Source: Pseudonocardia sp. SCN 73-27
GTDB taxonomy: Bacteria > Actinomycetota > Actinomycetes > Mycobacteriales > Pseudonocardiaceae
Assembly (NCBI GenBank): GCA_001725415.1
Contig: MEGH01000038.1
Span: 73,715 to 137,714 of the forward strand
Reading direction: 5' to 3'
Length of the DNA: 64,000 nt
Positions 4,715 to 41,340 of this stretch are shown here, in pieces; within the stretch, counting starts at the first letter, position 1, and every line of letters begins with the position of its first letter. A model generated the notes under the pieces. The model was given only the letters and a program-made list of their open reading frames with translations. It was not told where the DNA came from and ran no database searches. A program made the translations under genes and the position numbers.

Positions 4715-5413
4715 TCAGAGGTCGACGACGAGCCAGCCGCCGTGGTGCTCCGCCACGGTGAAGGGGCGGCCTGTCGTGTGGCCCAGGGTGTGGAGGTCGG
4801 CCAGGTCGAAGCGGCGGACGTGGCCCCAGGTGCGGTCGGGCTCGTCCTCGAACGGCACCGCCACGACGACGCGCTGCCGCGCGACCCGCAGCATCTCCGC
4901 CAGCACCTGCTGTCCCGCACGTGGGGGCAGGTGTTCGAGCAGGTGGACGGCGAACAGCGTGTCGGCCGACCTGGAGGCGAGCGGGACGGCGGTGGCGTCG
5001 GCGGCCATCGCGTGCACGGGACGGCCGAGGCGCCGTGACATCCGGGCGAGCAGCGCGGCCGTGCCCGGCACCAGGTCGAGCGCCGTGACCCGGTGGCCCG
5101 CGGCGGCCAGTCGCAGCGACAGGAACCCGAAGCAGCACCCGAGCTCGACGACGTCCCCGATCGCGAGCCCTGCTGCCCGCTCGTGCACCGGCGCGATCTC
5201 GGCGCACGTGCCGGAGACCCGTGCGCGGGTCTCCAGCGCGCCGAGGGTGTTGCGGTAGAAGGCGAGCCAGGCCTCGTCGGGATCGTCGGCAGCCGCGGTG
5301 ACGACGGCGACGAACGCCGCCTCGAACGCCTCCGGCGACAGGACGCCCGGCGCCACGAGGGTGCGCGCGAGCCAGCCGGCGAGGTCGTTGTCGAGCCGGT
5401 CGAGAGTGATCAT
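4715..5413 (-). CDS. Class I SAM-dependent methyltransferase; possible mycofactocin oligosaccharide methyltransferase (MftM-like)
   Basis: A 232-residue methyltransferase. SAM motif I is VVELGCCFGFLSLRLA, the acidic residue after strand 2 is in VTALDLVPG, and motif III/IV is ADTLFAVHLLEHLP. A distinctive N-terminal part (SPEAFEAAF, WLAFYRNTLGALETR) and C-terminal EHHGGWLVVDL flank the Rossmann fold. I think it resembles the methyltransferase that caps mycofactocin glycans (MftM). That is from memory and unconfirmed, though a mycofactocin locus lies 16 kb away. It is convergent with the SDR gene, with a small hairpin (CGAAAC...GTTTCG) in the 59-base gap. Confidence 0.7.
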   Translation of the reverse strand: MITLDRLDNDLAGWLARTLVAPGVLSPEAFEAAFVAVVTAAADDPDEAWLAFYRNTLGALETRARVSGTCAEIAPVHERAAGLAIGDVVELGCCFGFLSLRLAAAGHRVTALDLVPGTAALLARMSRRLGRPVHAMAADATAVPLASRSADTLFAVHLLEHLPPRAGQQVLAEMLRVARQRVVVAVPFEDEPDRTWGHVRRFDLADLHTLGHTTGRPFTVAEHHGGWLVVDL

Positions 5414-5576
5414 GTGCTGCTCCCGGGGTCGCGGCAGCCCTGTGCCGCAGCACGTCCGACGCTAGGTCGGTGCGTGGCGCAGCGGTGCGGAAACCGTCCG
5501 CGCGGGGGCGCGCGACTGTCCGACCGGACGGGCCCCGGTCCGCGCCTCCGGGTGAGGCTCGTCGCTGTAATCGATA

Positions 5577-5606
5577 TTGACTGTCGTTTTCATCAGCACG
5601 TAGCGT
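5577..5606 (+). promoter_or_regulatory. Candidate promoter with metal-regulator-like dyad upstream of the ABC importer
   Basis: TTGACT at 5577-5582 and TAGCGT at 5601-5606 are spaced by 18 bases and lie about 35 bases before the permease GTG. The 15-mer TGACTGTCGTTTTCA at 5578-5592 overlaps the -35 and spacer. Its outer TGA/TCA arms resemble 15-bp Fur/Zur-type boxes, but the inner match is weak. This AT-richer patch stands out from its surroundings. Confidence 0.4.
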
Positions 5607-5639: not shown

Positions 5640-6701
5640 GTGACGTCAGCAACGACCGCTCTGGTCGGTCCGCGGTTCGCCGCGCCGGGCCGATTCGCGC
5701 TGCTCTGCGGCGGGTTGGCCGTCGCGACGGTCGTCGTAGTGGTGCTCGGCGTCGTGATCGGCGCGGTGCCGGTGCCGCCGGGGACTGTGGTCGGCGTCGT
5801 CGCGCACCGGCTCGGGCTGCCCGTCGCCGCGCCCGACCCGGTGGCCGACCAGATCGTCTGGGCCTCCCGGCTCCCGCGCGTGCTGTTGGCGGTGCTGGTC
5901 GGCGCGGGGCTGGCGGTCGCGGGGGCGGTCATCCAGTCGGTCGTGCGCAACCCGCTCGGCGACCCCTACCTGATCGGCGTCGTCCCCGGGGCCGGGCTGG
6001 GCGCGGTCACGGTCATCGTCGCAGGCGGCGCCGCGGTGGGCGGGCTGTCGCTGTCGGCGGCGGCGTTCGTCGGGGCGCTGCTGGCGTTCGCGGTGACGTT
6101 CCTGCTGGGCCGCAAGGACGGGCACTGGCCGCCGACGCGCCTCGTGCTCGCCGGCGTCGCTGTCGGCTACCTCGTCTCGGCCGTCACCTACTTCCTGCAG
6201 ACGATCGCGACGCCGACCCAGGTCACCCGCGTCCTGTTCTGGACGCTCGGCAGCGTCGCGAGCGCCCGCTGGGCCGATCTCGTGCTGCCGGTGATCGTGG
6301 TCGTCGCCGCCACCGGGTGGCTGCTGCTGCAGGGCCGCCGGCTCGACGCGCTGGCCAACGGCACCGACGTCGCCTCCTCGCTGGGCCTCGCGGTCGGCCG
6401 GTTCCAGCTGCAGTTGATGCTCGTCGTGGCGTTGCTGACGGGCACGCTCGTCGCAGTCTCGGGCGGGATCCTGTTCGTGGGGCTGGTGATCCCGCACGTC
6501 GCGCGGCTGCTCGTCGGGGCGGGCAACCGGCGAGTGCTGGTCGGGGCGGTGCTGCTGGGGGCGGTGTTGCTGCCGCTGGCCGACCTCGCCGCCCGCACCG
6601 TCCGCGCCCCCGTCGAGCTGCCGATCGGCATCGTGACCGCCGCCGTCGGCGCGCCGTTCTTTCTGTGGCTGCTGCGGTCCTCGGGCAAGGGGGCGCGCTG
6701 A
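5640..6701 (+). CDS. FecCD-family ABC transporter permease (iron chelate/cobalamin type)
   Basis: A 353-residue polytopic membrane protein with the hallmarks of BtuC/FepD permeases: RLPRVLLAVLVGAGLAVAGA near the N-terminus, NPLGDPYLIGVVPGAGLGA, and GLVIPHVARLLVG close to the C-terminus, where the ABC ATPase docks. The GTG start at 5640 follows a GAGGG ribosome-binding site. Its stop overlaps the ATPase start by one base. The transported ligand is probably a metal chelate or corrinoid, given the family; nothing in the permease defines it. Confidence 0.93.
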   Translation: MTSATTALVGPRFAAPGRFALLCGGLAVATVVVVVLGVVIGAVPVPPGTVVGVVAHRLGLPVAAPDPVADQIVWASRLPRVLLAVLVGAGLAVAGAVIQSVVRNPLGDPYLIGVVPGAGLGAVTVIVAGGAAVGGLSLSAAAFVGALLAFAVTFLLGRKDGHWPPTRLVLAGVAVGYLVSAVTYFLQTIATPTQVTRVLFWTLGSVASARWADLVLPVIVVVAATGWLLLQGRRLDALANGTDVASSLGLAVGRFQLQLMLVVALLTGTLVAVSGGILFVGLVIPHVARLLVGAGNRRVLVGAVLLGAVLLPLADLAARTVRAPVELPIGIVTAAVGAPFFLWLLRSSGKGAR

Positions 6702-7528
6702 TGCGGGTCGAGGCCGAGGGCGTCGACGTCGAGATCGCCGGGCGGACGATCGTCGCGGGGGCGGTGCTGCGCGCGGAGCCCGGGACCGTCGTGGGGCTGT
6801 TGGGGCCCAACGGGTCCGGCAAGACGACGCTGCTGCGCACCGTCCACCGGGCGTTGCGCCCGCACGCCGGGACCGTCCACGTCGGGGGCGACGACGTGTG
6901 GCGGCTCGCCCCCAGGACCGCGGCGCGGCGGACCGCCGTCGTCATGCAGGACGACCCGACCGACTTCGAGTTCACGGTCCGCGAGGTCGTCGAGCTCGGC
7001 CGGGTGCCGCACCAGGGCCTGCTCTCGCGCGATCCCGCCGCCGACGCCGCGATCGTCGCCGACGCCATGCTCACCGCTCGGGTCGACGGCCTGGCCGACC
7101 GGCTCGTCAGCACCCTGTCCGGAGGTGAGCGGCAACGGGTGTTCCTCGCCCGCGCGCTCGCCCAGTCGACGCCCGTCCTCGTCCTCGACGAGCCGACCAA
7201 CCATCTCGACGTCCGCGCGCAGGTCGAGCTGCTCGAACTGCTGCGCGGGCTGGGCGTCACCGTCGTCGCCGCGCTGCACGACTTCAACCTCGCAGCCGCC
7301 TACTGCGACGACGTCGTCGTCATGCGCGACGGCCGCGTCGTCGCCCACGGCCCGATGGCCGACGTCCTCGTCCCCGACCTGGTGTCGCGGGTCTACGGCG
7401 TCGCCGTCGCGCGTGGGACCAACCCGCTGACGGGCCGCCCGTCGTTCACGTTCGCCCCCCTTCCCCAGCTCGAGGAGAACCCGTGTCCGTCCCCCGCCTC
7501 GCCGTTGCAGCCGTCGCCGCTGCCCTGA
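6701..7528 (+). CDS. ABC transporter ATP-binding protein (FepC/BtuD type)
   Basis: The nucleotide-binding subunit of the importer. Walker A is GPNGSGKTT, the Q-loop is VVMQDD, the signature is LSGGERQRVFLARAL, Walker B is VLVLDEPTNHLD and the switch His is in ALHDFNLAA. It is 275 residues, about the usual length plus a tail: its last 15 codons are read through the start region of the substrate-binding protein gene, a 46-base overlap in different frames. The start ATG overlaps the permease stop, so translation is probably coupled. Confidence 0.93.
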   Translation: MRVEAEGVDVEIAGRTIVAGAVLRAEPGTVVGLLGPNGSGKTTLLRTVHRALRPHAGTVHVGGDDVWRLAPRTAARRTAVVMQDDPTDFEFTVREVVELGRVPHQGLLSRDPAADAAIVADAMLTARVDGLADRLVSTLSGGERQRVFLARALAQSTPVLVLDEPTNHLDVRAQVELLELLRGLGVTVVAALHDFNLAAAYCDDVVVMRDGRVVAHGPMADVLVPDLVSRVYGVAVARGTNPLTGRPSFTFAPLPQLEENPCPSPASPLQPSPLP

Positions 7529-8433
7529 CGCTCGCCGCGTGCGGCAGCGCCCCCGCCGCGGGCCCTGCCGCCGCGACCGGTGAGGGCTTCCCGGTGTCGG
7601 TCACCCGCTGTGGCCACGAGCAGACCTTCGTCGCGCCGCCCGAGCGCGTCGTCCTCGGCTGGCCGACGACCCAGCGCACCCTCGCCGCGCTCGGTGTCGC
7701 CGACCGTGTCACCGGATACGTCAGCGGCGCGCTCGCGCCGATGCCCGCCGGCTCGACCGCGCAGGAGGTGTCGCCCGACTTCAAGCCCGCCAAGGAAGCC
7801 GTCCTCGCCGCCCGGCCCGGGCTGTTCCTGGCCAACGACGAGAACCAGATCTCCGGCGCCGAGGGCACCGCGAGCTGGGCCGACCTCGACGCCGCCGGCG
7901 GTCGCGGGTTCGTGCTCGGCGGGTACTGCCTCGACGCGCCCGCCCCCGACACCCTCGACGCCGTCTACACCGACATCCGCGACCTCGGTTCGATCTTCGG
8001 TGTCCGCGACCGGGCCGACCAGGTCGTCACCGACCTGCAGCGCCGGGTCACCACCGCCGCGGCGAAGGGCGGCGGGGCACGGGTCGCGGTCGTGCAGGTC
8101 TACGACGGCAAGGTCTACGCGCTCGCCGGCTCGTACTACAACGCGATCGTCGCCGGTGCCGGCATGACCAACGTGTTCGCCGGGCTCGGCCAGAACTTCG
8201 CCGAGATCAGCGCCGAGCAGGTCCTCACCTCGACGCCCGACGCGATCATCGCCGTCCACGACGACCCCGCCGGTGCCGACGCCGCCGTCGCCGCCGCACG
8301 TGAGGCCTTCGCGTCGACCCCGGCTGTGGCCGCGGGGAAGGTGTCGGCGATGTCGAGCGTCGACATCAGCGGTGGCGGCGTGAACATCGTCGACCTCGTC
8401 GAGCAGGCGGCCACCGCGGTCCACGGCCCGTGA
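7483..8433 (+). CDS. Iron-siderophore/cobalamin-type ABC substrate-binding lipoprotein
   Basis: A 316-residue FepB/BtuF-type binding protein. The signal peptide ends in the lipobox LAAC followed by Gly-Ser, so it should be lipid-anchored outside the membrane. The mature part has the two-lobe motifs PPERVVLGWPTTQRTLAALG and the late QVLTSTPDAIIAVHDD. The GTG start at 7483 has GAGGAG just upstream and lies inside the 3' end of the ATPase gene. Two mature-region Cys (VTRCG, GGYCLD) could form a disulfide. The ligand is not determinable from sequence. Confidence 0.9.
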   Translation: MSVPRLAVAAVAAALTLAACGSAPAAGPAAATGEGFPVSVTRCGHEQTFVAPPERVVLGWPTTQRTLAALGVADRVTGYVSGALAPMPAGSTAQEVSPDFKPAKEAVLAARPGLFLANDENQISGAEGTASWADLDAAGGRGFVLGGYCLDAPAPDTLDAVYTDIRDLGSIFGVRDRADQVVTDLQRRVTTAAAKGGGARVAVVQVYDGKVYALAGSYYNAIVAGAGMTNVFAGLGQNFAEISAEQVLTSTPDAIIAVHDDPAGADAAVAAAREAFASTPAVAAGKVSAMSSVDISGGGVNIVDLVEQAATAVHGP

Positions 8434-9638
8434 CGGGCACCCGGTCGCTGCTGGCGGCCAACCCGTCGTTCCGGCTGTGGCTGGCCTCCGACGTCGTGCG
8501 GACGCTCGGGTTCGCCGTCAGCACCGTCGTCCTGCCGATCCTGGTCTACGAACGCACCGGCTCCCCGGTGCAGACCGGGTTGCTCGCGGCGCTGCGGGTC
8601 GTCCCCTATCTCGCGGTCGGGCTCCTGGCCGGGGCGATCGCCGACCGGGTCGACCGCAAACGCCTCCTGATCGCGACGACGGTCGTCGAAGGCCTGGCAA
8701 TGGCCACGATCCCGCTGGTCGACGCTGTCACCCCGGTCCCGCTGATCCAGATCTACCTGGTGACGCTGATCGGGTCGACGGCATTCGTGTTCGCCGACGC
8801 CGCCGCCTTCGGCGCGCTCCCGACGATCGTCGGCCCCGACCGGCTCGCCTCCGCCAACGGGACGCTGCTCGCCGCGGTGTCGGCGGCGATGATCGGCGGA
8901 CCCGCGATCGGATCGCTGCTGGTCGCGACGATCGGCGCCGCCCCCGCGATCTGGGTCGACGTCGGCGGGTTCGCCCTCGGCGCACTGCTGCTCATGGGCG
9001 TGCGTGGGGAGTTCTGCGAACCCCGCACGTCGACGACGTTGCGCGCCCACGCCGTCGCCGGCCTGCGGTTCGTGGTGTCGGACCGGACGTTGTGCGTGCT
9101 GCTGGTCGCCGGGTTCGCGCAGTCGCTCGCCATCGGCGCAGTCGCCGGTCAGCTCGTCGTGTTCGCGGTCGAGGGCCTCGACATCCCGGAGATCGACGCC
9201 CGCGTCGGCTGGCTGTTCTCCGCCGGATCGGTGGGGACGCTGCTGGCCGGGGTGGTGTTCGGCCGGCTCTTCGACGTCGGCCGCGTCCGCCTGCTGACGC
9301 CCGCCGCGCTCCTCGCCGGGGCCGGGTCGCTGGCGCTGCTCGCCGCCGCGGGCGGGATTTGGGTCGCCGCCGTTGGTTACCTGCTGTTCGGGCTGGCGAC
9401 GCAGGTCGCGATCAACACCGGCATCACCTACCGCCAGCTCGTCAGCCCGCCGGGGCTGCGATCGTCGGTCAACGTGATCGGCCGCATGGTGGCCTGGGGC
9501 GGCAACCCCTTCGGCGCCATGGTCGCCGGCTTCGTCGCCGCCGCGGCCGGGGTGCGCACGGCGTTCTGGGCGGGTGTCGTCGTTCTCGCGGTGACGGCCC
9601 TCGTCGCAGCCCTGACGATCCCGCGCAAGCGCCCGTGA
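8430..9638 (+). CDS. MFS transporter, MFS_3/EntS-like exporter
   Basis: A 402-residue 12-helix MFS protein. It opens with NPSFRLWLASDVVRTLGFAVSTV-type sequence and the loop 2-3 motif GAIADRVDRKRLLI, as in EntS-like siderophore exporters and macrolide-type exporters. The GTG start overlaps the stop of the binding protein (GTGA), so it belongs to the importer operon. An exporter coupled to a chelate importer suggests a secrete-and-recapture system, or self-resistance to the RiPP made by the convergent cluster. Neither is proven. Its stop lies in a family A palindrome. Confidence 0.85.
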   Translation: MTGTRSLLAANPSFRLWLASDVVRTLGFAVSTVVLPILVYERTGSPVQTGLLAALRVVPYLAVGLLAGAIADRVDRKRLLIATTVVEGLAMATIPLVDAVTPVPLIQIYLVTLIGSTAFVFADAAAFGALPTIVGPDRLASANGTLLAAVSAAMIGGPAIGSLLVATIGAAPAIWVDVGGFALGALLLMGVRGEFCEPRTSTTLRAHAVAGLRFVVSDRTLCVLLVAGFAQSLAIGAVAGQLVVFAVEGLDIPEIDARVGWLFSAGSVGTLLAGVVFGRLFDVGRVRLLTPAALLAGAGSLALLAAAGGIWVAAVGYLLFGLATQVAINTGITYRQLVSPPGLRSSVNVIGRMVAWGGNPFGAMVAGFVAAAAGVRTAFWAGVVVLAVTALVAALTIPRKRP

Positions 9639-9718: not shown

Positions 9719-9758
9719 GTGAGCGGTAATAGTCGCTATAGCGACTATTACCGCTCAC
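9719..9758. repeat. 40-bp palindromic repeat, family A copy 3
   Basis: A perfect dyad with arm GTGAGCGGTAATAGTCGCTA. With copy 2 it forms a pair of hairpins in the 125-base gap between the convergent MFS and YcaO genes, where a bidirectional end signal would be expected. Confidence 0.9.
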
Positions 9759-9763
9759 GAGGG

Positions 9764-11077
9764 TCAGTGGGGGAGCGGGGTGCGCGGGACGGGGAACGGG
9801 GAGGTGCGGCGGGCCGCGGCGAGGCGGGTCCCGCCCAGGAACGGCAGTCCCTGCGGGGCGTTCGAGTACAGGCCCGGCACCAGCACCCGGACGACCGTGA
9901 AGCCCAGCGGCGCGACGTCGGGGGTCGTCACGTCGACGGCGACGACCCGGTGCCCGGCCAACGTCAGGACGTCGACGAGGTCCCCGGTGCCGCGGACCGG
10001 CGCGGCGAGCGACTCCAGCGCGACTTGGTCCGTCGTCCGCTCCGACAGCTCGGTCTCGAACTCGGCGCGCACTGCCGGGTCGAGGTGGAGCTGCAGGTGG
10101 CAGGCGTAGTCGACGACGTCGGAGCGGTCCGGCAGGTACGCCGAGCCGTAGGCGCGGTCGGCCCGCCACTGCTTGAGCGGGCTGTGCGGGTGGGCGGCTG
10201 CGGCGGCGAAGGCCCCGTGGGGGTCGTCGTAGTCGGCGAGGACGAGCTGAAGCTGCAGGGCCTCGGCGAACGCCTTCACCGCGGCGGTGACCGGGTCGGG
10301 GTCGACGCCGGTGCCGAGGCTGAGCAGGCCGGTCGTGGCGTCGGTGACCAGCGCGGCGACGACGGGCAGCCCGAACGGCGAAGTGAGCGCGACGAACCGC
10401 GTCGTGAGCAGTCCGTCCGGCCCAGCGGCGAAGGAGACCAGCCATGCGGGCGGGTCGAGCGCACGGACGCCGAGGCCGCCGTACCAGGACAGAGTCATGG
10501 CGTCGCGTTCCACGACCTCGCGCAGCCCGCCCCACACGGCGAAGCCGCGGTCGGGGCCGGCGGCCAGCCCGGCCTGAATGACGGGGTTGGTCAGCGGACC
10601 GCGCTGGGCGCCGACGGGTGAGTGGTACGACGGCCACACCGGACCGGCGGGGACGAGGACCTCGGAGTCGTCGACGAGATCGCGGCCGACCACCCACTCC
10701 ATCTCCAGGTCGGTGGTCATCGGGACTGCGGGGAAGCCGGGCGTCGCGTACTGCGCGTCGGAGAAGAACGCGAAGGTCGTGGGGTCGAGGGCGTTGCCGC
10801 CCAATGCTTTGTGGCTCGCCCGGACCAGTCCGGGCGGGACGAGGTTGCCGCAGTAGCGCTCGACGGCCTCGCCGATCGCCGCGGCCCGTACCGCCGCGGG
10901 GTCGGCGAACGCATAGCCGGCCCCGGCCGGGTCGGAGGCCCAGCCGCCGAAGCGGGAGGTGTCGGCGATGCGGGAGGTCGTGAGCGCGAACGACGTCGGG
11001 AAGTGCGCGGGGATGGCGGCGGGGTCGAGGGCGCGGACGATCCCGGTCCGCGGATCGGCCAGCAAATCGGGGGACAC
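9764..11077 (-). CDS. YcaO-domain protein 1 (TOMM cyclodehydratase type)
   Basis: YcaO proteins use ATP to activate peptide backbone amides and make azolines, thioamides or amidines. This 437-residue protein has the ATP-binding signatures AAIGEAVERYCGN near residue 70 and LREVVERDAMTLSWYG near residue 190. It ends in a Pro-rich tail containing PVPRTPLPH, close to the PxPxxP C-terminus of azoline-forming YcaO enzymes. It starts at GTG 11077, 10 bases after the stop of YcaO 2, and is the last gene of the minus-strand RiPP operon. It differs clearly from YcaO 2, so the two are paralogues with probably distinct jobs. Confidence 0.88.
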   Translation of the reverse strand: MSPDLLADPRTGIVRALDPAAIPAHFPTSFALTTSRIADTSRFGGWASDPAGAGYAFADPAAVRAAAIGEAVERYCGNLVPPGLVRASHKALGGNALDPTTFAFFSDAQYATPGFPAVPMTTDLEMEWVVGRDLVDDSEVLVPAGPVWPSYHSPVGAQRGPLTNPVIQAGLAAGPDRGFAVWGGLREVVERDAMTLSWYGGLGVRALDPPAWLVSFAAGPDGLLTTRFVALTSPFGLPVVAALVTDATTGLLSLGTGVDPDPVTAAVKAFAEALQLQLVLADYDDPHGAFAAAAAHPHSPLKQWRADRAYGSAYLPDRSDVVDYACHLQLHLDPAVRAEFETELSERTTDQVALESLAAPVRGTGDLVDVLTLAGHRVVAVDVTTPDVAPLGFTVVRVLVPGLYSNAPQGLPFLGGTRLAAARRTSPFPVPRTPLPH

Positions 11078-11087
11078 GGGTCGCCTC

Positions 11088-12443
11088 TCAGGCCAGGGGC
11101 AGGGGATGTGCGACGAGGTCGGCCTCGTCGCGGGGTGGGTCGGGCCAGCCGAGCCGGGCGGGGACGTCGAACAGCCGGGTGCCGCCGTGCAGCGGGAACG
11201 CGGGCGGCCCGTTACCGACGAGCCCGGCCGCCACGACCCGGACGACGCACCAGCCGGCGGCCGCGACGTCGGGTGTCGTCAGGTCGACCGAGACCGTGCG
11301 GATGCCGGCGGTGGCGAGTCGTCGAAGGTAGGTGGCCCGGGGGTCGGCGACCGCAGCGACATCGGCGAGCTTGTGGGAGGGGACAGGTCGCAGCCGGGAC
11401 AGTGGCGTCCCCTGCATCCGCGGGTCCAGGTAGAGCTGGGCGACGGCGGGCAGGTCGGTCAGCGCCCGGAACCCGGGGCCGGCGTCGTCGAGGTACCGGC
11501 GGTCCGCGCGGAACGGCAGGTAGGCGTGGGCCTCGATGGTCCCGGACGCGACCGCGGCCCACGTGAGGCTGGCGGGATCGGCGAGGTCGCGGGCGTGGCG
11601 CAGCAGCCCGAGCGCCTCGACGAGGGCCTTGCCCGCGGCCCGCGCCGGATCGGCCCGGCACGCGCTGCCGAACCCCACGAACCCGTCCTGCTCCACCAAC
11701 GCAGCGACCACCGGAACCTCGAACTCCGACGGCACCGCGACGAGATGCACCTGCAACGGCCGGTCGCCCGCGGGACGGCCGAGGGCCCCGGTGACGCGGC
11801 CGTCGTCGTCGAGACCCGTCGCCGGGGCGCCGGAGGCCCACCAGATGCCGGTGGCGTCGCGTTCGAGCAGCTCCTCGAGGGCGGACCGTTCGGCCGCCGC
11901 GCGGTCGGTGCCTGCGGCGATGCCGGAGTACATGAGCGAGTGCGTCGGCGGCTCGTCGGCGCGGGTGCCGTGGACGTAGTCGAGATGGGCGAGCGACGCG
12001 GGCACCCACGTCGCGTCGCCGGTGTGGAGATCGGTGCCGCGCACCCACCCGACGCGCAGGTCCCGGGTGAACGGCACGAACGGGAACCCGTGTTGGCTGT
12101 ACTGCCGCGCCGAGTAGAGCGCGAGTGTCGACGGATCGAGTGCGTCGTCGCCGGCCTCGATCAGCTCGTCGTACGACGCGCGGCGCAGCACGTCGGGCAC
12201 GGCGTTGCCGCAGTAGCGCTCGATGGCCTCGCCGATCGCAGCGGCGCGGGCGGCGTGCTCGTCGCCGAGGCTGGCGCCGAAGCCGGTGGCGTCAGCGCGC
12301 CACGTCGTGAAGCGGTCGGTGCGGCCGACGAGCGCGCCGTACGACACGAGCCCCGACGGCAGCCCGGACGGCACGGGCAGCCGGTCGACGTCGACGAGCA
12401 GCCCGGTGCGGCGGTCGGTGAGGGGGTGGGCGAGGCCGGTCAC
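11088..12443 (-). CDS. YcaO-domain protein 2 (TOMM cyclodehydratase type)
   Basis: The second YcaO protein, 451 residues, with AAIGEAIERYCGN and LEELLERDATGIWWASG ATP-site motifs. The C-terminus is HPLPLA, a weaker version of the Pro-rich tail seen in YcaO 1, so the catalytic end may be altered. It starts at GTG 12443, overlapping the hydrolase stop by 4 bases. Two YcaO proteins with one leader-binding protein in a cluster is uncommon. One may form azolines and the other another backbone change, or they may work as a hetero-complex (inference). Confidence 0.88.
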   Translation of the reverse strand: MTGLAHPLTDRRTGLLVDVDRLPVPSGLPSGLVSYGALVGRTDRFTTWRADATGFGASLGDEHAARAAAIGEAIERYCGNAVPDVLRRASYDELIEAGDDALDPSTLALYSARQYSQHGFPFVPFTRDLRVGWVRGTDLHTGDATWVPASLAHLDYVHGTRADEPPTHSLMYSGIAAGTDRAAAERSALEELLERDATGIWWASGAPATGLDDDGRVTGALGRPAGDRPLQVHLVAVPSEFEVPVVAALVEQDGFVGFGSACRADPARAAGKALVEALGLLRHARDLADPASLTWAAVASGTIEAHAYLPFRADRRYLDDAGPGFRALTDLPAVAQLYLDPRMQGTPLSRLRPVPSHKLADVAAVADPRATYLRRLATAGIRTVSVDLTTPDVAAAGWCVVRVVAAGLVGNGPPAFPLHGGTRLFDVPARLGWPDPPRDEADLVAHPLPLA

Positions 12444-13987
12444 CGGACCTCCCCGACGGGCAGGGTCAGCGACGACTTTCCGGTGTGGACGGTGTGCGTG
12501 CCGGCGCGCAGGTGGACGGCGTAGTGGCGGTCCTCGCCGGTGCCGGGGTTGCGGGCCAGGAACGGGAAGTCCGATCCCGTGACCTCCAGGACCAGTCGCG
12601 ACCCGGTGCCGACGACGAGCGCCGCCGCCCCCAGCGGCACCCGGATCCGGCCGTGGCGTGTGGCGACCGCGGACCCGCGGGTGACCTCCAGCAGCCTGCC
12701 GTCGGGCCGGTGCTCCAGCACGCGGACGATCCAGTCGGCGCTGTCGGTGGTCGTCGACACCGTGAGGTCGACGTGCCCGGCGCCGTCGACGCGCAGCGGT
12801 TCGGGCAGCGGGCCGGTGGCGAAGCGGGCGGCGTCGCGGCGGGCGAGCAGCGGGGCGCGGTCGCCGGCGGGCAGCGTCGAGGGAAAGGGATCGGCGGGGT
12901 CGTGGGTGAACATGACGACCCCCGGTTCGGCCTCGCGGTCCAGCCCGCCGTCGGGCCCGAGGTGCCAGGTCCGTTGCAGCGCAGCGGGTGGCCACGTCGG
13001 CGTCGTCTCCCAGCGATCCGCGCCGGGGACGAACACCCGTGCGGCCCCGGGCGCGGTGGGATCGTCGAGGGCAGCGCGCAGCCAGTCGACGAACAACGAC
13101 CCGAGCGGCAGTCGCGACGCCGGACCGTGCTCCCGGGCGCCGACCGCGGTCGAGCCGTCCATCCCGAGGTCGTGCCCCCACGGACCGACGACCAGATCGC
13201 GGCGCGGTCGCGGCGACACCGCGGAACCGGTGCGGGAGAACAGGTCCAGCACCTCGTCGACCAGCAGGTCGTACCAGCCTCCGACGTGCAGCGACGGCGC
13301 CGCCAGCCCCCGGACCTCGGCATCCGTGACCGCCTCCGGCGGGGAGTCCGACGGGTGCAGTACCAGGGTGTCGGCCCAGTGCGGGAGCCTCGCCCCGAGC
13401 AGGTCGGCGATCCCGGCGACGGGCAGATGCGCCAGCAGGTCGGGATGCTCGGCGAACACGATCCGGCGCAGGCCCTCCCGGCTGGTGCGGGAGTCGGCGC
13501 GGTCGAGCCACCACCCGGCGTGCTCGGCAAGGCGCAGGATGCCGGAGGGCTCGAACTTGGTGCGGTGCAGGCCCATCGACGGTCCGAGGCTCAGCACCGC
13601 CGACACCGGCCGTTCCACCGCCGCCGCCCACGCCGTGTACCCGGCGTACGAGCCGCCCAGGACGGCGATCCGCCCGTCGGACCACGGCTGGTCGCGGACC
13701 CAGTCGAGCAGCGCGGCACCGTCGGCACGCTCGTTGCGGTACGGCGTCCACGTGCCCGCGGAGTCGTAGCGACCGCGGACGTCCTGCACGACGAACCCGA
13801 ACCCCCGCGAGCGCCACGCCCGGCCCTCGGCCAGGTGCGTGGAACGCCCGTACGGCGTCCGGGTCACGACGACCGGCACCGGCCACTCCGCCGCCGGCGG
13901 GACGTGCGCGTCGAGGACGAGCTCGGCGCCGTCGGGGGCGGCGACGGGGAGGTTTGCCCAGGTCGTGAGCTCTGCCAGGGTCTTCAC
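12440..13987 (-). CDS. CocE/NonD-family alpha/beta hydrolase (X-Pro dipeptidyl-peptidase-like)
   Basis: A 515-residue serine hydrolase. The N-terminal part has the family's RTPYGR, VVQDVRGRYDSAG and nucleophile elbow GGSYAGY. The catalytic Asp is likely in GGWYDLLVDE and the His in GPWGHD. The C-terminal jelly-roll domain (LTVSTTTDSADWIVRVLEH) is typical. CocE, glutaryl-acylase and PepX relatives cleave esters or N-terminal X-Pro peptides. In this operon it could remove the leader or trim the modified core, which contains a Gly-Pro and an Asn-Pro bond. The GTG start at 13987 overlaps the stop of the E1-like gene. Confidence 0.85.
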   Translation of the reverse strand: MKTLAELTTWANLPVAAPDGAELVLDAHVPPAAEWPVPVVVTRTPYGRSTHLAEGRAWRSRGFGFVVQDVRGRYDSAGTWTPYRNERADGAALLDWVRDQPWSDGRIAVLGGSYAGYTAWAAAVERPVSAVLSLGPSMGLHRTKFEPSGILRLAEHAGWWLDRADSRTSREGLRRIVFAEHPDLLAHLPVAGIADLLGARLPHWADTLVLHPSDSPPEAVTDAEVRGLAAPSLHVGGWYDLLVDEVLDLFSRTGSAVSPRPRRDLVVGPWGHDLGMDGSTAVGAREHGPASRLPLGSLFVDWLRAALDDPTAPGAARVFVPGADRWETTPTWPPAALQRTWHLGPDGGLDREAEPGVVMFTHDPADPFPSTLPAGDRAPLLARRDAARFATGPLPEPLRVDGAGHVDLTVSTTTDSADWIVRVLEHRPDGRLLEVTRGSAVATRHGRIRVPLGAAALVVGTGSRLVLEVTGSDFPFLARNPGTGEDRHYAVHLRAGTHTVHTGKSSLTLPVGEVR

Positions 13988-14727
13988 GACGCGAGTGCCG
14001 GCAGTGTCAGGACGGGGTGTCGGGTCACGCGCAGCGGGTCCGTCGCGACCTCGGTCTGGTACCCGACGGGCCCGGCGACGTCGGTGCGCCACCACGTCGC
14101 GATCTCGTCGGCGACAAGTCCGGCGACGACCGCCGCGACCCCGGGACCCGGGTCCGGCAACGGCGGCGCAGACGCAGGGTCGTCGAGCCACGCCCAGTGA
14201 TGGGTCAGCTCGTCGGGGATACCGCTGGCGGCGAGGCGACGGCCCCGCAGGTCGGTGTAGGAGGGCGACTGTCCCGGCACGGTCAACGGCCCGACCAGCC
14301 ACGACGACCCCTCCGCGTGGCAGCGGTGCCAGGCGACACTCGCTGCGGCGCAGGCGTCGTCGAGCGCGCGCCAGCGGGAGTCGGGCAGCCAGCCGGCGCA
14401 GTCGACGAGGACGTCGACCTCGTCGAGTTCGCCGTTGCGCCGGGGAGACCAGGACGCGAGGACGGCCGCGAGCGCGTCGGCGACAGGCCCGTCGCCATGG
14501 AGAAGGACGCGCGGAGGTGTGCGCACGGGCGGCGGGGGCGCCAGCAGACCCTGGGCCTCGAACGCCTGGCGCAGTGAGTCGATGTCGGCGTTCCCGGGGG
14601 CCGCGCTCTGGAAGGCGCGCAACGCCTCCTCGGGGCCGTTGATGCGCAGGTACCGGTCGCCGGGCAGCGCGCAGCGCCAGCCGTCGGGCGTCGGATAGAG
14701 GTGATGGCCGGGGCGCAGCGTGGTCAC
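13984..14727 (-). CDS. TOMM E1-like/leader-peptide-binding cyclodehydratase partner protein
   Basis: A 247-residue protein. The N-terminal ~75 residues (RPGHHLYPTPDGWRCALPG... LRQAFEAQGLL) look like the winged-helix RRE-type leader-binding part of TOMM C proteins. The rest resembles a reduced ThiF/E1 fold (RVLLHGDGPVADALAAVLASW, then VDVLVDCAGW). Only the acidic ATP-site features of true E1 enzymes are missing, as in other TOMM partners that only bind the precursor. Its role is to deliver the precursor to the YcaO proteins. It is the first gene after the precursor, separated by a hairpin. Start GTG 14727. Confidence 0.75.
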   Translation of the reverse strand: MTTLRPGHHLYPTPDGWRCALPGDRYLRINGPEEALRAFQSAAPGNADIDSLRQAFEAQGLLAPPPPVRTPPRVLLHGDGPVADALAAVLASWSPRRNGELDEVDVLVDCAGWLPDSRWRALDDACAAASVAWHRCHAEGSSWLVGPLTVPGQSPSYTDLRGRRLAASGIPDELTHHWAWLDDPASAPPLPDPGPGVAAVVAGLVADEIATWWRTDVAGPVGYQTEVATDPLRVTRHPVLTLPALAS

Positions 14728-14799: not shown

Positions 14800-14988
14800 T
14801 CAGCCGGAGAACGAGAAGGGGTTGTGCACCAGGGCGTTGGTCGTCGGACCCTGCAGCGCCGACAGGGCCGGGAGCTCGGCGACCTCGTCGAACGAGAACG
14901 GGTTGTGCACCAGCGCGTTGGTCGTCGGGCCCTGGAGAGCCGACAGCGCGGGGAGCTCGGCGATCTCGTCGAAGGTGACGTTGTCCAT
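14800..14988 (-). CDS. TOMM/azoline-type RiPP precursor peptide with two tandem 27-residue units
   Basis: A 62-residue peptide: a five-residue start (MDNVT), then two near-identical units of 27 residues (residues 6-32 and 33-59), then FSG. Each unit runs FDE(I/V)AELPALSALQG followed by PTTNALVHNPFS. Only Ile/Val differs. The acidic, Leu-rich first half of each unit looks like a recognition element, and the second half holds the modifiable Thr-Thr and Ser residues. There is no Cys, so thiazoles cannot form; oxazoline, methyloxazoline or amidine products are possible. The ATG at 14988 follows a GGAGG ribosome-binding site. The location just before the E1-like and YcaO genes supports the assignment. 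I recognise no named precursor family. Confidence 0.8.
   Translation of the reverse strand: MDNVTFDEIAELPALSALQGPTTNALVHNPFSFDEVAELPALSALQGPTTNALVHNPFSFSG
14812..14973 (-). repeat. Two tandem 81-bp coding repeats in the precursor gene
   Basis: Unit 1 spans 14893-14973 and unit 2 spans 14812-14892. They encode the same 27 residues except one Ile/Val change, and the DNA is also nearly identical, so the duplication is recent or kept uniform by gene conversion. Confidence 0.9.
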
Positions 14989-15009
14989 CCGGAACCTCCA
15001 TCTAGCGAA

Positions 15010-15028
15010 CATGGAAACCGTTTCCATG
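15010..15028. promoter_or_regulatory. Perfect 19-bp palindrome upstream of the RiPP precursor, candidate operator
   Basis: CATGGAAAC, a central C, then GTTTCCATG: a perfect 9-bp dyad, 22 bases upstream of the precursor ATG. The TGGAAAC/GTTTCCA arms resemble operators of LacI/GalR-family repressors, although these usually have an even centre. No such regulator is encoded in the window. The position would block transcription of the whole minus-strand operon. Confidence 0.55.
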
Positions 15029-15114
15029 TAGGCGAGACGGTACGGCCCGGATCTCCGGTTCGGAAGGGCCTGCGCCGGGGTGTGACCCGGCCCACGAACT
15101 GAACACCCCGATAC

Positions 15115-15165: not shown

Positions 15166-15229
15166 ACGTCGGGACGCCGGGACGTCGGGACGCCGGGACG
15201 CCGGGACGCCGGGACGCCGGGATGCCGGG
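15166..15229. repeat. Octanucleotide tandem repeat, eight copies
   Basis: Eight head-to-tail units of ACGCCGGG. Units 1 and 3 read ACGTCGGG and unit 8 reads ATGCCGGG; a degenerate ninth unit follows. It directly abuts the 22-bp inverted repeat. Short perfect tandem arrays are prone to length change by slippage. No ORF of note uses it. Confidence 0.9.
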
Positions 15230-15334
15230 ACGCCCGGGTCTCTCGGGACGCCGGCGCCGGGACGTCAGGACCTCTGGGGCCGAGGCCGGGACCGGTACCG
15301 GGACGTCAGGTCTCGGGGTGCCCGGCCGGACCTC

Positions 15335-15374
15335 GTGAGTGGCAATAGTCGCTATAGCGACTATTGCCACTCAC
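15335..15374. repeat. 40-bp palindromic repeat, family A copy 4
   Basis: A perfect dyad with arm GTGAGTGGCAATAGTCGCTA, 7 bases downstream of the stop of the minus-strand VWA gene. This is the nearest to a consensus copy. Confidence 0.95.
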
Positions 15375-15381
15375 AGGGGAG

Positions 15382-16926
15382 TCAGCGGCCGATCAGTTCG
15401 CCCGCCATCTCGTGGGCGGTGGTCTCCAGGCCGGTGAGGTCGCGGACCACGCGGACGCGGTCGCAGTGCTCGGCGTAGGCAGGCAGGTCGCAGCGGCCCA
15501 GGCCCCAGGAGTAGCGGGGCTCCGGGGTCAGCCAGATGGTCTCCCGCGCCCGCCGCGTGATCTCGACGAACGCCTCCATGTTGGGGTCGTTCCCGTTGCC
15601 GCGGCCGTCGCCCAGGATCAGCACGGTCGAGCGCCGGTTGACCGCCGACGAGTGCTCCTCCAGGAACTGCCCGAACGCGAGCCCGTAGTGGGAGTTGGCG
15701 TCGACGTCGAGGACGTCCCCGCCGAAGACGAGCCCGAGGGCCTGCTCGACGGGGTGGTCGGCGAACAGGTCGGTGATCTCGACGAGGTCGGACACGAACG
15801 CGAACGACCGGACCTGCCCGAACAGGTCCTGCAGCCCGTGCACGAGGTGCAGCGTGAACCGGGCGGTGGCGCGCACCGACAGCGAGACGTCGGCCAGTAC
15901 GACGAGCCGCGGCTTGTCCTCGGCGCGTTTGACGGTCACCGGGTTGAAGGGGATGCCGTCGAAGCGCATGTTGCGACGCATGGTCCGGCCCGAGTCGACC
16001 CGGCCCTGCGCGGCGACGCGGCGGCGGTGCGTCAGCGCCCCGTGCAGCGTCTTGGCCAGGCGGCGCAACGAGTCCTCGAGCTGCATGCGCTCGGTCTCGG
16101 TGGCGCGGTCGACCTCGGCGGCGCGGACGGCGTCCTCGTGCCCGGCGTCGACGATCCGCTGTTCCAGCTCCAGCAGCTGCTCGAGGTGTTTCTTGATGGC
16201 CTCGGGCAGGTTGGCCAGCACCCCGGCGAGCCTGCGCCGCAACGCCGCCGCGTCGTCCTCGGTGCCCGTGGTCGCGTCGAGCTCGTCCTCGGTGGCGGTG
16301 AGCCAACCGAGCAGCGCCTCCTGCTGGGCGACGGAGAGGTCGGCGTCGACCTTGGTGCCGGTGGCCTGCGAGATGTCGCCGGGCAGGCCGGCGCCCGACA
16401 GCCGGTCCGTCTCGATCTGGACGCGGTTGCCCTCGGTGAGTTGCGACGCCTGGTCGTCCTTCGAGAAGACGATCTCGTCGGTCATCGCGGCGAGGTCGAT
16501 CTTGTTGGCCTCCTGGTGCAGGTTGTACTGCTGCGCAAGGTCTTCCGGGTCGAAGTAGTCACGGATGTCGACGGGTTTGCCGTGGCTGTGGCCCTGCTGC
16601 GGGGTCTGGCCGGGGTCCTCGGAGAGCGTGAAGTCGTCGAGGGTCCCGTCGTCGGAGAGATCGCCGTGGCCGTGCCCGTGACCGTGGCCGTGCTCCTCCT
16701 CGCCCACCTTGACCAGCGCGAAGTAGGCGGAGAACACCTCGTCGAACACCTCGTCGTCGCGGCGGTCCTTCACCAGCGCGACCCGCAGCGCCTCCCGCAG
16801 CAGCCCGCGGTCGGCGAGGATGCCGGGCTGGGCGGCGCAGCGCATCGCGTCGAGGGCTTCGGACACCGAGATCCGCACGCTCCGCAGCCGCAGCAGCCGG
16901 ACGAACCGGTGGATCGCGGCCTCCAT
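15382..16926 (-). CDS. VWA-domain protein (CoxE-like), partner of MoxR ATPase
   Basis: A 514-residue protein with a helical N-terminal part and a C-terminal von Willebrand A domain. The MIDAS-type motif is LADVSLSVRATARFT (DxSxS), with the later Asp/Gly motifs LILGDGRGNG. MoxR/VWA pairs act as chaperones that insert metals or activate oxidoreductases such as CO dehydrogenase and methanol dehydrogenase. A His-Gly-rich linker (EEEHGHGHGHGHG) lies near residue 80 and could bind metal. It overlaps the MoxR stop by one base, and the operon sits beside the methanol dehydrogenase gene. A family A palindrome lies just downstream. Confidence 0.85.
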   Translation of the reverse strand: MEAAIHRFVRLLRLRSVRISVSEALDAMRCAAQPGILADRGLLREALRVALVKDRRDDEVFDEVFSAYFALVKVGEEEHGHGHGHGHGDLSDDGTLDDFTLSEDPGQTPQQGHSHGKPVDIRDYFDPEDLAQQYNLHQEANKIDLAAMTDEIVFSKDDQASQLTEGNRVQIETDRLSGAGLPGDISQATGTKVDADLSVAQQEALLGWLTATEDELDATTGTEDDAAALRRRLAGVLANLPEAIKKHLEQLLELEQRIVDAGHEDAVRAAEVDRATETERMQLEDSLRRLAKTLHGALTHRRRVAAQGRVDSGRTMRRNMRFDGIPFNPVTVKRAEDKPRLVVLADVSLSVRATARFTLHLVHGLQDLFGQVRSFAFVSDLVEITDLFADHPVEQALGLVFGGDVLDVDANSHYGLAFGQFLEEHSSAVNRRSTVLILGDGRGNGNDPNMEAFVEITRRARETIWLTPEPRYSWGLGRCDLPAYAEHCDRVRVVRDLTGLETTAHEMAGELIGR

Positions 16927-18128
16927 CAGAACGGCCGCTTGCGACGCCCGCCCGACCCGAACGACCGCGAGCCCTGGCCCGGTGTCACGGTGCGGACCGG
17001 AGTGGGCGTCTGCTGCGTGGCCCCGTGGGTGCCTCCGTACACGCTGCCGTGGCGGCCCGCGGTGTCCTTGGCGGCGCGCTTGGCCTTCCCGTCGACGTCA
17101 CCGTCGTCGTGGTCGTGCTCGCCGCCGTGCCCGTGGTCGTGACCATGTCCGTGTCCGTGGCCGTGGGCCGGCTCCTCCACCGAGGCGTTCGGGTCGACCA
17201 GCCGCGGCAGCGCACCCAGTGCCTTGGTGACGTCCTTGTCGTACTTGACGACGACCGACACGGTGTCGGACAGGACCTGCGCGTTGAGCTCGTCGACGCC
17301 CAGGACGGCCAGGGTCCGGACCCAGTCGATGGTCTCGGAGATGCTGGGCGCCTTGCGCAGTTCGAGCTCCCGCAGCCCGCGGACGACGCCGACGAGCTCC
17401 TCGGCCAGCGCGTCGGAGAGCCCCGTCTTCTTGCTCTTGACGATCTCCAGCTCGCGCTCGGCGGCCGGGTAGTCGAGGAACATGTGCAGGCAGCGACGCT
17501 TGAGCGCGGCGGCCAGGTCGCGGGTGTTGTTCGAGGTCAGCAGCACGTAGGGCCGGTTCTCGGCGACGAACGTCCCGACCTCGGGGACGGAGATCTGGAA
17601 CTCGCCGAGGGTCTCCAGCAGCACGGCCTCCAGGGCCTCGTCGGCGCGGTCGACCTCGTCGATCAGCAGGACGACGGGCTGCTCGGAGCGGATGGCCTCC
17701 AGCAGCGGGCGCGGGGCGAGGAACCGTTCGGAGAAGAACACGCTCTCCTGGGCGCCGATGCGGTCGACGGCGGCGTGCAGGTCGGGGGCGTCGGCGACGA
17801 CCTGGCCGATCTTCTCCCGCAGGATCTGGGTGTACAGCAGTTGCTTGCCGTAGTCCCACTCGTAGAGCGCCTTGGTCTCGTCCTGGCCCTCGTAGCACTG
17901 CAACCGCAGCAGCCGCCGGCCCGTCGCGAGCGCGAGGACCTTGGCCAGCTCGGTCTTTCCGACGCCCGCAGGGCCTTCGAGCAGCAGCGGCTTGTCGAGC
18001 CGCGTCAGCAGGAAGACGGTGGTGGCGAGCCGGGTGTCGGCGATGTAGCCCTGGTCGCGCAGGGCGGCGATGACGTCGTCGACGGAGTCGAACGTGGGGG
18101 CCGGGTCGAGGTCGGACTCAGTGCTCAC
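16926..18128 (-). CDS. MoxR-family AAA+ ATPase with His-rich C-terminal tail
   Basis: A 400-residue AAA+ protein. Walker A is EGPAGVGKTE, Walker B is VVLLIDEVDRAD, and sensor 1 is VLLTSNNTRDL. The family's usual length is about 320 residues. Here a ~75-residue tail adds a run of alternating His and Gly/Asp (AHGHGHGHGHDHG) and a Gly/Arg-rich end. The matching His-rich linker in the adjacent VWA protein suggests a joint metal-handling role, perhaps loading the metal of the neighbouring alcohol dehydrogenase (inference). The GTG at 18128 is chosen because the longer frame upstream has no recognisable content. Confidence 0.9.
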   Translation of the reverse strand: MSTESDLDPAPTFDSVDDVIAALRDQGYIADTRLATTVFLLTRLDKPLLLEGPAGVGKTELAKVLALATGRRLLRLQCYEGQDETKALYEWDYGKQLLYTQILREKIGQVVADAPDLHAAVDRIGAQESVFFSERFLAPRPLLEAIRSEQPVVLLIDEVDRADEALEAVLLETLGEFQISVPEVGTFVAENRPYVLLTSNNTRDLAAALKRRCLHMFLDYPAAERELEIVKSKKTGLSDALAEELVGVVRGLRELELRKAPSISETIDWVRTLAVLGVDELNAQVLSDTVSVVVKYDKDVTKALGALPRLVDPNASVEEPAHGHGHGHGHDHGHGGEHDHDDGDVDGKAKRAAKDTAGRHGSVYGGTHGATQQTPTPVRTVTPGQGSRSFGSGGRRKRPF

Positions 18129-18243
18129 GGCCGGGTACTCCTTCCGCGCGGCTCTCCGGCGAGCCGCGGCAGGTAGCGCGGGCGAGCCCGCCACGCCCCC
18201 GGCATGCGCCGGAGTCGCGTGGCGGGCCCGTCGGGAAGAGGTA

Positions 18244-18283
18244 GTGAGCGGCAATGATCGCTACAGCGACCATTGCCGCTCAC
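18244..18283. repeat. 40-bp palindromic repeat, family A copy 5
   Basis: The left arm is GTGAGCGGCAATGATCGCTA, with two mismatches between arms near the centre. It lies 4 bases beyond the stop of the minus-strand methanol dehydrogenase gene. Confidence 0.9.
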
Positions 18284-18287
18284 AGGG

Positions 18288-19580
18288 TCAGCTCAGCAGG
18301 TCGTCCAGGTCGCCGTTGATGCAGTGGTCGACGACCGGCCGGACCGTCTCGAAGGTGCACTCCTTGGGGTTTCCCGGGGTGCAGGCGTCACCGAGGACGT
18401 GGTTGGTGATCCGGTCGACGTCGGCGGCGTCGCCCTTGATCTCCTTGGCGTTCTCGTAGTACTGCGTCGGGCCCGTGCCCAGCCGGTTCTTCGAGTAGCT
18501 GTCCTTGGTGACGTCGACGAACCGCTCCGGGATACCCACGTCGCGCAGCAGCCGGATCGACGCGGCGAGCGCGGCGTCGGCGGCCTGCGGCTTCGTCATC
18601 CCCGCGGTGTCGATGCCCATGGCCTCGGCGATGTCGGCGAACCGCTCGTAGCAGACCGGCATGTTGAACGCCCACACCCGCGGCAGCGCGATGGCGTTGT
18701 TGAGGCCGTGGTGGGTGTCGTAGAACGCCGACACCGCGTGGCTGATCGAGTGGATGATCCCCAGACCACCGGAGTTGAACGCCTGGGCGGCGATGTACTG
18801 CGCGTACATCATGCCCTCGCGGCCGGCCAGGTCCTGCCCGTTCCACACGGCCTGACGCAGACTCTGCGCGGTGAGCTTGATGGCGTGCAACGCGTTGCCC
18901 AGCGACGGCTGGAAGTTCAGCCGCGACACGTACGGCTCGGAGGCGTGGGCGAGCACGTCGAAACCACACTGCGCGGTGTAGTCGATCGGGCAGTCGTAGT
19001 AGAGCACCGGGTCGTCGATCGCCAGCGTCGTGACCGAGGCGTCGTCGAACGCGACGTACTTGTGGGGGTTGTCGGGGTCCGTCGTCGTGTCGGTGATGAC
19101 GTAGGCCCAGGAGGTCTCCGACCCGGTACCGGCCGTGGTCGAGACCGCGATGTGCGGCGGGTTCTGTGGGTTCTCCGACTTGTTGAAGCCCTCGAACTCG
19201 TTGACGTTGCGACCGTCGTGCGCGACCGAGATGCGCGCGCCCTTGCAGGCGTCGTGCGACGAGCCGCCGCCGATGGAGACGAACGAGTCACAGTTGTTCT
19301 GCTGGTACAGGCCCACAGCGTCCATGACGTTGTAGTCCTTGGGGTTCGACTCGACCTGGTCGTAGAGGACGACCTCGAGACCGTGGTACTTCATCGACTC
19401 GACGATCTTGTGGACGATGTCGGTGCCGCGCAGGCCCGAGGTCATCACGAGCGTCTTCTTGAAGCCCAGCTTCAGGGCCTCCGGCCCGATCATCTCGTGC
19501 GCGCCCGGCCCGAGCAGAGCCTTCGGGAACGGGTGGAACTCCTTGATGGGGAACGGCTTCAACAGCTCGTCGACCTGCAT
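18288..19580 (-). CDS. mdo: NDMA-dependent methanol/alcohol dehydrogenase (iron-containing ADH family)
   Basis: A 430-residue group III alcohol dehydrogenase. The nucleotide motif GGGSSHDACKG, the TTAGTGSETS segment and the metal-binding His region (SISHAVSAFYDTHHGLNNAIALPRVWAFN area) are present. The N-terminus (MQVDELLKPFPIKEFHPFPKA) matches what is known of actinobacterial NDMA-dependent methanol:oxidoreductases. In these decameric enzymes NAD(P)H is tightly bound and re-oxidised by mycofactocin, so the mft genes on the opposite strand fit well. It probably oxidises methanol or other short alcohols to aldehydes. It is preceded by an AAAGG ribosome-binding site and is upstream of the MoxR/VWA pair on the same strand. 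Confidence 0.93.
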   Translation of the reverse strand: MQVDELLKPFPIKEFHPFPKALLGPGAHEMIGPEALKLGFKKTLVMTSGLRGTDIVHKIVESMKYHGLEVVLYDQVESNPKDYNVMDAVGLYQQNNCDSFVSIGGGSSHDACKGARISVAHDGRNVNEFEGFNKSENPQNPPHIAVSTTAGTGSETSWAYVITDTTTDPDNPHKYVAFDDASVTTLAIDDPVLYYDCPIDYTAQCGFDVLAHASEPYVSRLNFQPSLGNALHAIKLTAQSLRQAVWNGQDLAGREGMMYAQYIAAQAFNSGGLGIIHSISHAVSAFYDTHHGLNNAIALPRVWAFNMPVCYERFADIAEAMGIDTAGMTKPQAADAALAASIRLLRDVGIPERFVDVTKDSYSKNRLGTGPTQYYENAKEIKGDAADVDRITNHVLGDACTPGNPKECTFETVRPVVDHCINGDLDDLLS

Positions 19581-21130: not shown

Positions 21131-21431
21131 CCCGACCGCCGGTGGCGCGGACCCCGGGTTCGACCCGGGTTCCGCGTACCGCTGCAGCCCGCAGGTCTCC
21201 CTGCGGCCCGAGTCCTTCGGGGCACTCGTCTACCACTTCGGGACGCGCAAGCTCTCCTTCCTGAAGACGCCGCAGCTCGTCGACGTCGTCACCGGGCTGG
21301 AGAAGCACTCCGACGTGCACGCCGCGATCGACGCGGCGGGCGTTGCCGAGACCGAACGCCCCGCGTACCTCACGGCCCTGGCCGGCCTCGCCGCCTCCGG
21401 GACCATCGAGGCCCGTCCCACCACCACGTAA
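21120..21431 (+). CDS. mftB: Mycofactocin biosynthesis chaperone MftB (RRE/PqqD-like)
   Basis: A 103-residue peptide chaperone that binds MftA and presents it to MftC. The PqqD-like winged-helix core is visible in YRCSPQVSLRPESFGALVYHFGTRKLSFLKTPQLVDVV and the C-terminal helices with LAGLAASGTI. The GTG start at 21120 lies within mftA, the usual gene overlap. mftC follows after 13 bases. Confidence 0.93.
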   Translation: MSTDPTAGGADPGFDPGSAYRCSPQVSLRPESFGALVYHFGTRKLSFLKTPQLVDVVTGLEKHSDVHAAIDAAGVAETERPAYLTALAGLAASGTIEARPTTT

Positions 21432-21444
21432 GCAGGGAGCGCAC

Positions 21445-41284: not shown

Positions 41285-41293
41285 CAGCAGCCC

Positions 41294-41333
41294 GTGAGTG
41301 GCAATAGTCGCTGGAGCGACTATTGCCACTCAC
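41294..41333. repeat. 40-bp palindromic repeat, family A copy 8
   Basis: The arm is GTGAGTGGCAATAGTCGCT, with a GG at the centre instead of TA/AT. It lies between the convergent coxG and PepSY genes. Confidence 0.93.
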
Positions 41334-41340
41334 GAGGCCG

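Follow-up and report, generated by a model that had tools for sequence, protein, structure and literature searches.

What does a bacterium make from a peptide gene that is one unit written twice, and what does it make it for? This question is raised by a small gene next to two YcaO genes in the 64-kb stretch of Pseudonocardia DNA analysed here, which we call the window. We propose that the gene encodes a motif-B precursor of the streptamidine family, that it yields two ALQGPT amidines and that it belongs to a zinc acquisition system controlled by Zur. To this explanation as a whole we assign a probability of roughly 0.6.

The precursor gene, its neighbours and its family

The gene occupies positions 14800..14988 of the minus strand; in the open reading frame translation its ATG is at 14988 and its stop at 14800. 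The product of 62 amino acids has the layout MDNVT, FDEIAELPALSALQGPTTNALVHNPFS, FDEVAELPALSALQGPTTNALVHNPFS, FSG. A single residue (I/V) separates the two 27-residue units, their DNA identity is 90%, and Cys is absent from the whole peptide. The sequence GGAGG lies 6 nt 5' of the ATG. A longer in-frame start (ATG 15027, METVSMF...) was dropped: the stretch it adds coincides with the operator palindrome described below, hence we prefer the short start.

The NCBIfam profile for streptamidine-related RiPP repeat proteins, NF040715, scores 121.2 bits against this peptide (cutoff 45). The streptamidine profile NF040714, which describes motif A, reaches 21.3 bits, under its cutoff of 40. The locus carries a repeated motif-B unit with NALV beside YcaO genes. 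Profile score and unit comparison place the gene in the streptamidine (AmiA) precursor family, as a member with two units of motif B.

Such precursors have been described before. Network 1 of the streptamidine-type precursors holds 237 sequences with one, two or three copies of motif A or B; where a cluster has two YcaO genes, as mainly in Frankia, Rhodococcus and Clavibacter, the motif is usually B, and the family precursors lack cores rich in Ser, Thr or Cys (PMC8442711). Thus the two-unit layout is already known. The original prediction, which knew of no described family with this layout, was mistaken on this point: the NF040715 score and the published motifs rule out a novel family. Compared with NF040715 (AmiA_rel_RiPP2x) and the motif-B clusters of these three genera, the window has the same two repeats, two YcaO genes and motif, without essential difference. 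Other parts of that prediction stand, namely a RiPP precursor of two near-identical, Cys-free 27-residue units and its place upstream of E1-like, hydrolase and two YcaO genes on the same strand, as the domain matches confirm.

The enzymes follow the precursor on the minus strand. An E1-like, leader-binding protein of AmiB type (13984..14727; TIGR03882 28.6 bits, below the cutoff of 36.9) matches the protein at the AmiB position of L050, an 18-kb motif-A locus, at 28% over 201 aa (E 1e-5). A PDB sequence search with the E1 alignment gave TruD as the best match, which at E 0.13 is not significant. Next come an S15/CocE-type hydrolase of AmiC type, a putative leader protease (12440..13987; TIGR00976 229 bits, PF02129), whose start overlaps the E1 stop via GTGA and which matches the L050 hydrolase at 34% (E 7e-51), and the YcaO genes 1 (11088..12443; TIGR03604 283 bits) and 2 (9764..11077; TIGR03604 255.5 bits). 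The two YcaO proteins match AmiD of L050 at 38% (E 5e-62) and 33% (E 1e-40). In a tree of 48 rows, first YcaO (clade Y1), second YcaO (clade Y2) and AmiD are each set off by a fully supported branch; AmiD joins the first-YcaO group, possibly as a long-branch effect. The tree leaves out the second YcaO of L037, an odd ORF of 569 aa, and the second YcaO of L031 is cut by a contig end.

To the left of the RiPP operon, on the plus strand and convergent with it, lie the transporter genes: the FecCD permease of a metal-chelate type ABC importer (5640..6701; PF01032 293 bits), the importer ABC ATPase (6698..7528; PF00005), a FecB-like substrate-binding lipoprotein (7483..8433; PF01497) with an uncertain start codon, the listed ORF overlapping the ATPase, and an MFS transporter (8430..9638; PF07690) as candidate exporter. 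Most of this arrangement recurs among the 25 other motif-B loci: E1-like protein in 24, hydrolase in 22, both YcaO in 22, FecCD importer in 20 and MFS transporter in 20, where three of the loci with gaps (L029, L031, L043) are contigs of 3.4 to 7.5 kb. A SAM methyltransferase divergent from the importer (4715..5413, minus strand; PF13649) is a possible further member; it was matched in just one of the 25 (L022). The Zur-regulated genes of M. smegmatis include a methyltransferase, according to the part of PMC7174638 available to us.

Streptamidine itself (ami BGC of Streptomyces albidoflavus J1074; PMC8442711; NF040714) resembles the window in its AmiB-, AmiC- and AmiD-like enzymes in identical order and in its Fec-type importer. 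It differs in having motif A, where the window has two units of motif B and a second YcaO, and an ABC exporter, where the window has an MFS transporter. The AmiE dehydrogenase, essential for streptamidine biosynthesis (PMC8442711), has no match at E 1e-3 in the 26 motif-B loci, some of them on short contigs. The window binding protein has no match in L050, nor has AmiF1 of L050 in the window.

How widespread is the family? By sampling, the motif-B profile is rare. NF040715 occurs in 3 of 62 sampled genomes of the genus and 2 of 298 of the order, the genome of the window included in both counts, and in that genome alone among 396 sampled from the phylum. A scan of 84,980 species genomes gave 24 motif-B loci, which with the window and L014 make up the 26 loci compared here. 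The motif-A profile was found in 33 of 246 sampled genomes of one genus (that of G459), three of the 33 yielding no locus, and in 2 of 396 genomes of the phylum.

The unit was counted in these relatives, a comparison that the original prediction had suggested. Two units are present in 23 of the 26 motif-B loci, four in L027, five in L035 and one in L045, and the 27-residue period is kept in all 30 unit spacings of the 25 multi-unit loci. The repeat in the window is therefore no chance feature. With four and five units the two Acrocarpospora loci, L027 and L035, go beyond the three reported in the main text of PMC8442711; their precursors show small differences in the core flank (VHTPFG, VHTPFA, VHSPFA). 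The single-unit peptide of L045 (Streptomyces lavendulae, 10001-10105) has no E1 or YcaO gene in 20 kb; its box is poor, a fragment of a binding protein follows the peptide, and the locus is perhaps a decayed cluster.

Over their first 11 residues, the two units of one precursor agree at 0.72 in the 23 two-unit loci, whereas agreement between precursors is 0.29 to 0.37. Judged by this comparison, the units of a precursor evolve in concert, by conversion or shared recognition.

Position and chemistry of the core

Which part of the unit becomes the product? The original prediction chose the half PTTNALVHNPFS, with azolines on its Thr and Ser or a macroamidine there. Conservation speaks for this choice: the half that contains NALVxNPF is the most conserved portion of the unit, and all 56 motif-B units have Thr at position 0. 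But NALVxNPF is common to the streptamidine precursors, as in the motif-A example ...FSPIADQGQLA-HLSATH-SNALVENPF..., and lies there outside the product HLSATH, which was proven by NMR (PMC8442711). For this reason we set PTTNALVHNPFS aside as the likely core and regard it as improbable. NALVHNPF is probably a follower outside the core.

The alignment with motif A points to ALQGPT instead. Against a profile built from eleven motif-A precursors the first window unit aligns without a gap (16.7 bits), and HLSATH falls on ALQGPT. Hence we take ALQGPT as the counterpart of the streptamidine core, and the core proposed originally is probably wrong. The alignment reaches the core in three of five motif-B precursors (window, L033, L043) and spans the NALVxNPF portion alone in L024 and L025. 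Full-sequence scores of the five range from 18.8 to 24.1 bits, against a best score of 8.7 for 1000 shuffled precursors. The core consensus of motif B is A-(P/L)-Q-(G/A)-P-(G/T); Ala1 and Gln3 are present in all 56 units. The predicted core ALQGPT has no Cys and lacks the richness in Ser, Thr and Cys of an azol(in)e peptide (TOMM/LAP).

Each unit would then consist of a leader F-D-E-(I/V)-A-E-L-P-A-L-S, a core A-L-Q-G-P-T and a follower T-N-A-L-V-H-N-P-F-S. By analogy with streptamidine, the core may be dehydrated by the E1-like protein together with one YcaO enzyme or both, the S15/CocE hydrolase may free its N-terminus, and the amine of Ala would close with the Leu carbonyl (residue 2) into a six-membered amidine. 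The amidine of streptamidine lies between the N-terminal amine and the residue-2 carbonyl (PMC8442711). One precursor would give two copies of one hexapeptide amidine. This agrees with the earlier expectation of two like products, with a macroamidine as a possible product. Core and mass of motif-B products can now be predicted: computed by the same analogy, ALQGPT minus water has an [M+H]+ of 568.3089. The same calculation returns the value of 647.326 reported for streptamidine; it predicts 467.2612 for a shorter product ALQGP and 370.2085 for ALQG, while the core proposed originally would give a peptide near 1279.643.

The chemistry of motif B may differ from that of streptamidine, however, because Ser3 of streptamidine, which may take part in amidine formation (PMC8442711), is replaced by the invariant Gln. 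With Gln3 in every unit and no AmiE match in any of the 26 loci, the motif-B loci show neither mark of streptamidine proper.

A further likeness is to the cyanobactins (PatE/LynD/TruD), which have repeated recognition sequences round repeated cores and an E1/YcaO cyclodehydratase; YcaO 1 matches TruD at E 1e-10. The comparison was already drawn in PMC8442711. In contrast to cyanobactin clusters, no PatA/PatG-type protease was seen among the typed window genes, and the window cores are free of Cys.

Palindromes before the precursors and their regulator

The original prediction missed an operator. A predicted Zur-type palindrome, ACATGGAAACCGTTTCCATGT (15009..15029, 15-bp core 15012-15026), lies 23 bp before the precursor ATG. 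A second predicted box (5575..5595, core 5578-5592 TGACTGTCGTTTTCA) lies before the FecCD operon, between it and the methyltransferase. In sequence both resemble the boxes of Zur regulons, which have a 7-1-7 layout near the start, as before znuA and the genes of Cys-free ribosomal proteins.

A published pattern allows the boxes to be scored independently of the present sites. This is TGANAANNNTTNTCA, the inner part of the actinobacterial znuA motif as given in the part of PMC5472717 available to us. In the 64-kb window the published pattern finds two sites, before the precursor and before FecCD, with 2 mismatches each. We counted a box where TGANAANNNTTNTCA occurs no more than 100 bp from the start and with two mismatches or fewer; the start positions of eight motif-B loci were set by hand from ORF reading. 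By this count 23 of the 26 motif-B loci have a box, whereas 0.74% of 10,400 random windows from the same loci pass. Nine of these boxes have no mismatch, ten have one and four have two, at a distance of 17 to 38 bp. The loci without a box are L045 and two from Frankia, which carry a perfect variant palindrome, CGGAAATGGTTTCCG. Two mismatches make for a loose pattern, which 1 of 400 random windows near the window precursor passes, and hence the weight is carried by the positions of the boxes and their conservation.

The boxes extend to motif A. Of 33 motif-A loci 32 were scored (L067 was not located), and 31 of these have a box by either published pattern; among 9600 random windows the patterns pass in 0.90% and 0.65%. 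The one locus without a box, L049, is near a contig end. Streptamidine-type L050 shares with the window Zur-type boxes before both precursor and importer: at one mismatch or fewer by either published pattern, its sites lie only before amiA and amiF1. Genome G491 has three motif-A precursor places (L047, L048, L049), two of them boxed and the third near the contig end.

In the 6.95-Mb genome of the window, the 21-bp palindrome at 15009-15029 is the sole place that matches TGNAAACSNTTTNCA without a mismatch. The pattern TGRAAAYSRTTTYCA with up to two mismatches occurs at 7 sites (1 for the reversed control). The precursor box alone has zero mismatches; the sites ahead of rpmE2 (Cys-free L31) and znuA have one mismatch each, and a site with two lies between rpmG-rpmB-rpsN and the divergent cobW. 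The remaining three sites have no matched zinc gene nearby. Since TGRAAAYSRTTTYCA was drawn up after the sites were known, the rank of the precursor box is partly by construction; the matches at znuA and the ribosomal protein genes are not. A LacI-type operator was also considered and dropped as improbable because the same pattern recurs before znuA and rpmE2.

In other genomes, only matches that received a locus were counted. The Arthrobacter genome that contains L038 has the lineage pattern at two places only, the precursor and znuA. Agreia has four: the precursor with FecCD, a second FecCD gene that lies 429 bp from a cobW match, an ABC ATPase and one unmatched place. The second FecCD-type transporter (L082) has a perfect lineage box and is likely another zinc-regulated importer. 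Of five places in Clavibacter one is the precursor, two have cobW matches starting 169 and 744 bp off, and two are unmatched. Five further genomes yielded 23 loci: four precursors, three znuA, three ABC ATPases, one binding protein and twelve with no matched zinc gene.

Could the palindromes serve another Fur-type regulator, one for iron, peroxide, nickel or manganese? Fur-family operators commonly have the 7-1-7 layout. The genome of the window has five FUR-family genes, and the boxes of Microbacteriaceae read TGAGAAYSRTTCTCA. All this would suit such a regulator. However, the pattern marks znuA in the same genome, in Arthrobacter, in Streptomyces MBT53 (twice) and in Amycolatopsis suaedae, and it marks the genes of Cys-free L31, L33 and S14 in the genome of the window. 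Moreover, at least 17 motif-A boxes match, without mismatch, the Zur motif of S. coelicolor, which was derived by ChIP (the part of PMC5472717 available to us). We therefore consider another Fur-type regulator very improbable and Zur the likely regulator of streptamidine-family precursors. The word Zur is absent from the main text of the streptamidine paper (PMC8442711), and no link between Zur and streptamidine was found among the open-licence matches listed. As far as these searches go, Zur-type control of the family is unreported.

A possible role in zinc acquisition

Both operons of the window are preceded by Zur-type boxes, and hence we expect induction on zinc starvation: zinc-bound Zur would repress the RiPP and FecCD operons and release them when zinc is scarce. 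Most likely the role is zinc acquisition, in which the product would be a secreted zincophore that the MFS transporter exports and the Fec-type transporter re-imports. Coelibactin-type zincophores are not known to be ribosomal peptides. Coelibactin and other Zur-repressed zincophores resemble the window in the Zur box before their biosynthetic genes (for coelibactin, the part of PMC5472717 available to us), but the streptamidine family is without known zinc binding.

Indeed, streptamidine did not bind iron, Co, Cu, Mg, Mn, Ni or Zn in assays, and an amiD mutant behaved like the wild type under metal starvation (PMC8442711). His, Cys and acidic residues are missing from ALQGPT, which hence would by itself be a poor zinc ligand. 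Alternatively, then, the family is Zur-controlled and the peptide is not a chelator. It might act as a signal, an antibiotic or a metabolic adjunct under zinc shortage, or the importer might carry something else. The boxes at the precursors, the lack of zinc ligands in the predicted core and the metal assays agree with this alternative. Against it, 20 of the 25 other loci have a Fec-type importer close to the cluster, the importer has its own box in both the window and L050, and no antibacterial or other bioactivity was seen for streptamidine (PMC8442711). On balance we think a non-chelating peptide unlikely, though less so than the other alternatives above. A zincophore could be reconciled with the negative metal tests if the product holds zinc only with its follower, with a partner or with the binding protein.

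More tentatively, and with somewhat less than even confidence, we extend zinc acquisition to the whole family: motifs A and B alike may be Zur-repressed, and their amidine peptides, together with Fec-type importers, may act as zincophores, the first made by YcaO enzymes. Streptamidine-like clusters have been reported in over 230 species, and their role has hitherto been unknown. A box at nearly every precursor examined offers a specific and cheap test of this role, by zinc chelation or zur deletion. If the clusters are Zur-controlled, growers learn how to switch silent ones on.

Overall, the original prediction is partly supported: the RiPP precursor and its cluster stand, the novelty and probably the core do not.

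Some other features of the window are worth recording. A perfect palindrome of about 40 nt (GTGAGTGGCAATAGTCGC...) recurs in five near-identical, dispersed copies (9719-9758, 15335-15374, 24576-24615, 41293-41334, 53995-54034), and two of them flank the RiPP operon. Tandem GGGACGCC-type repeats lie upstream of the operon at 15170-15245. The regions 15382-19580 and 21343-22701 encode an NDMA-dependent methanol dehydrogenase (TIGR04266), a radical SAM-SPASM protein and, below cutoff, MadB/MadC-like ATPase and VWA proteins; we presume that they are a mycofactocin locus.
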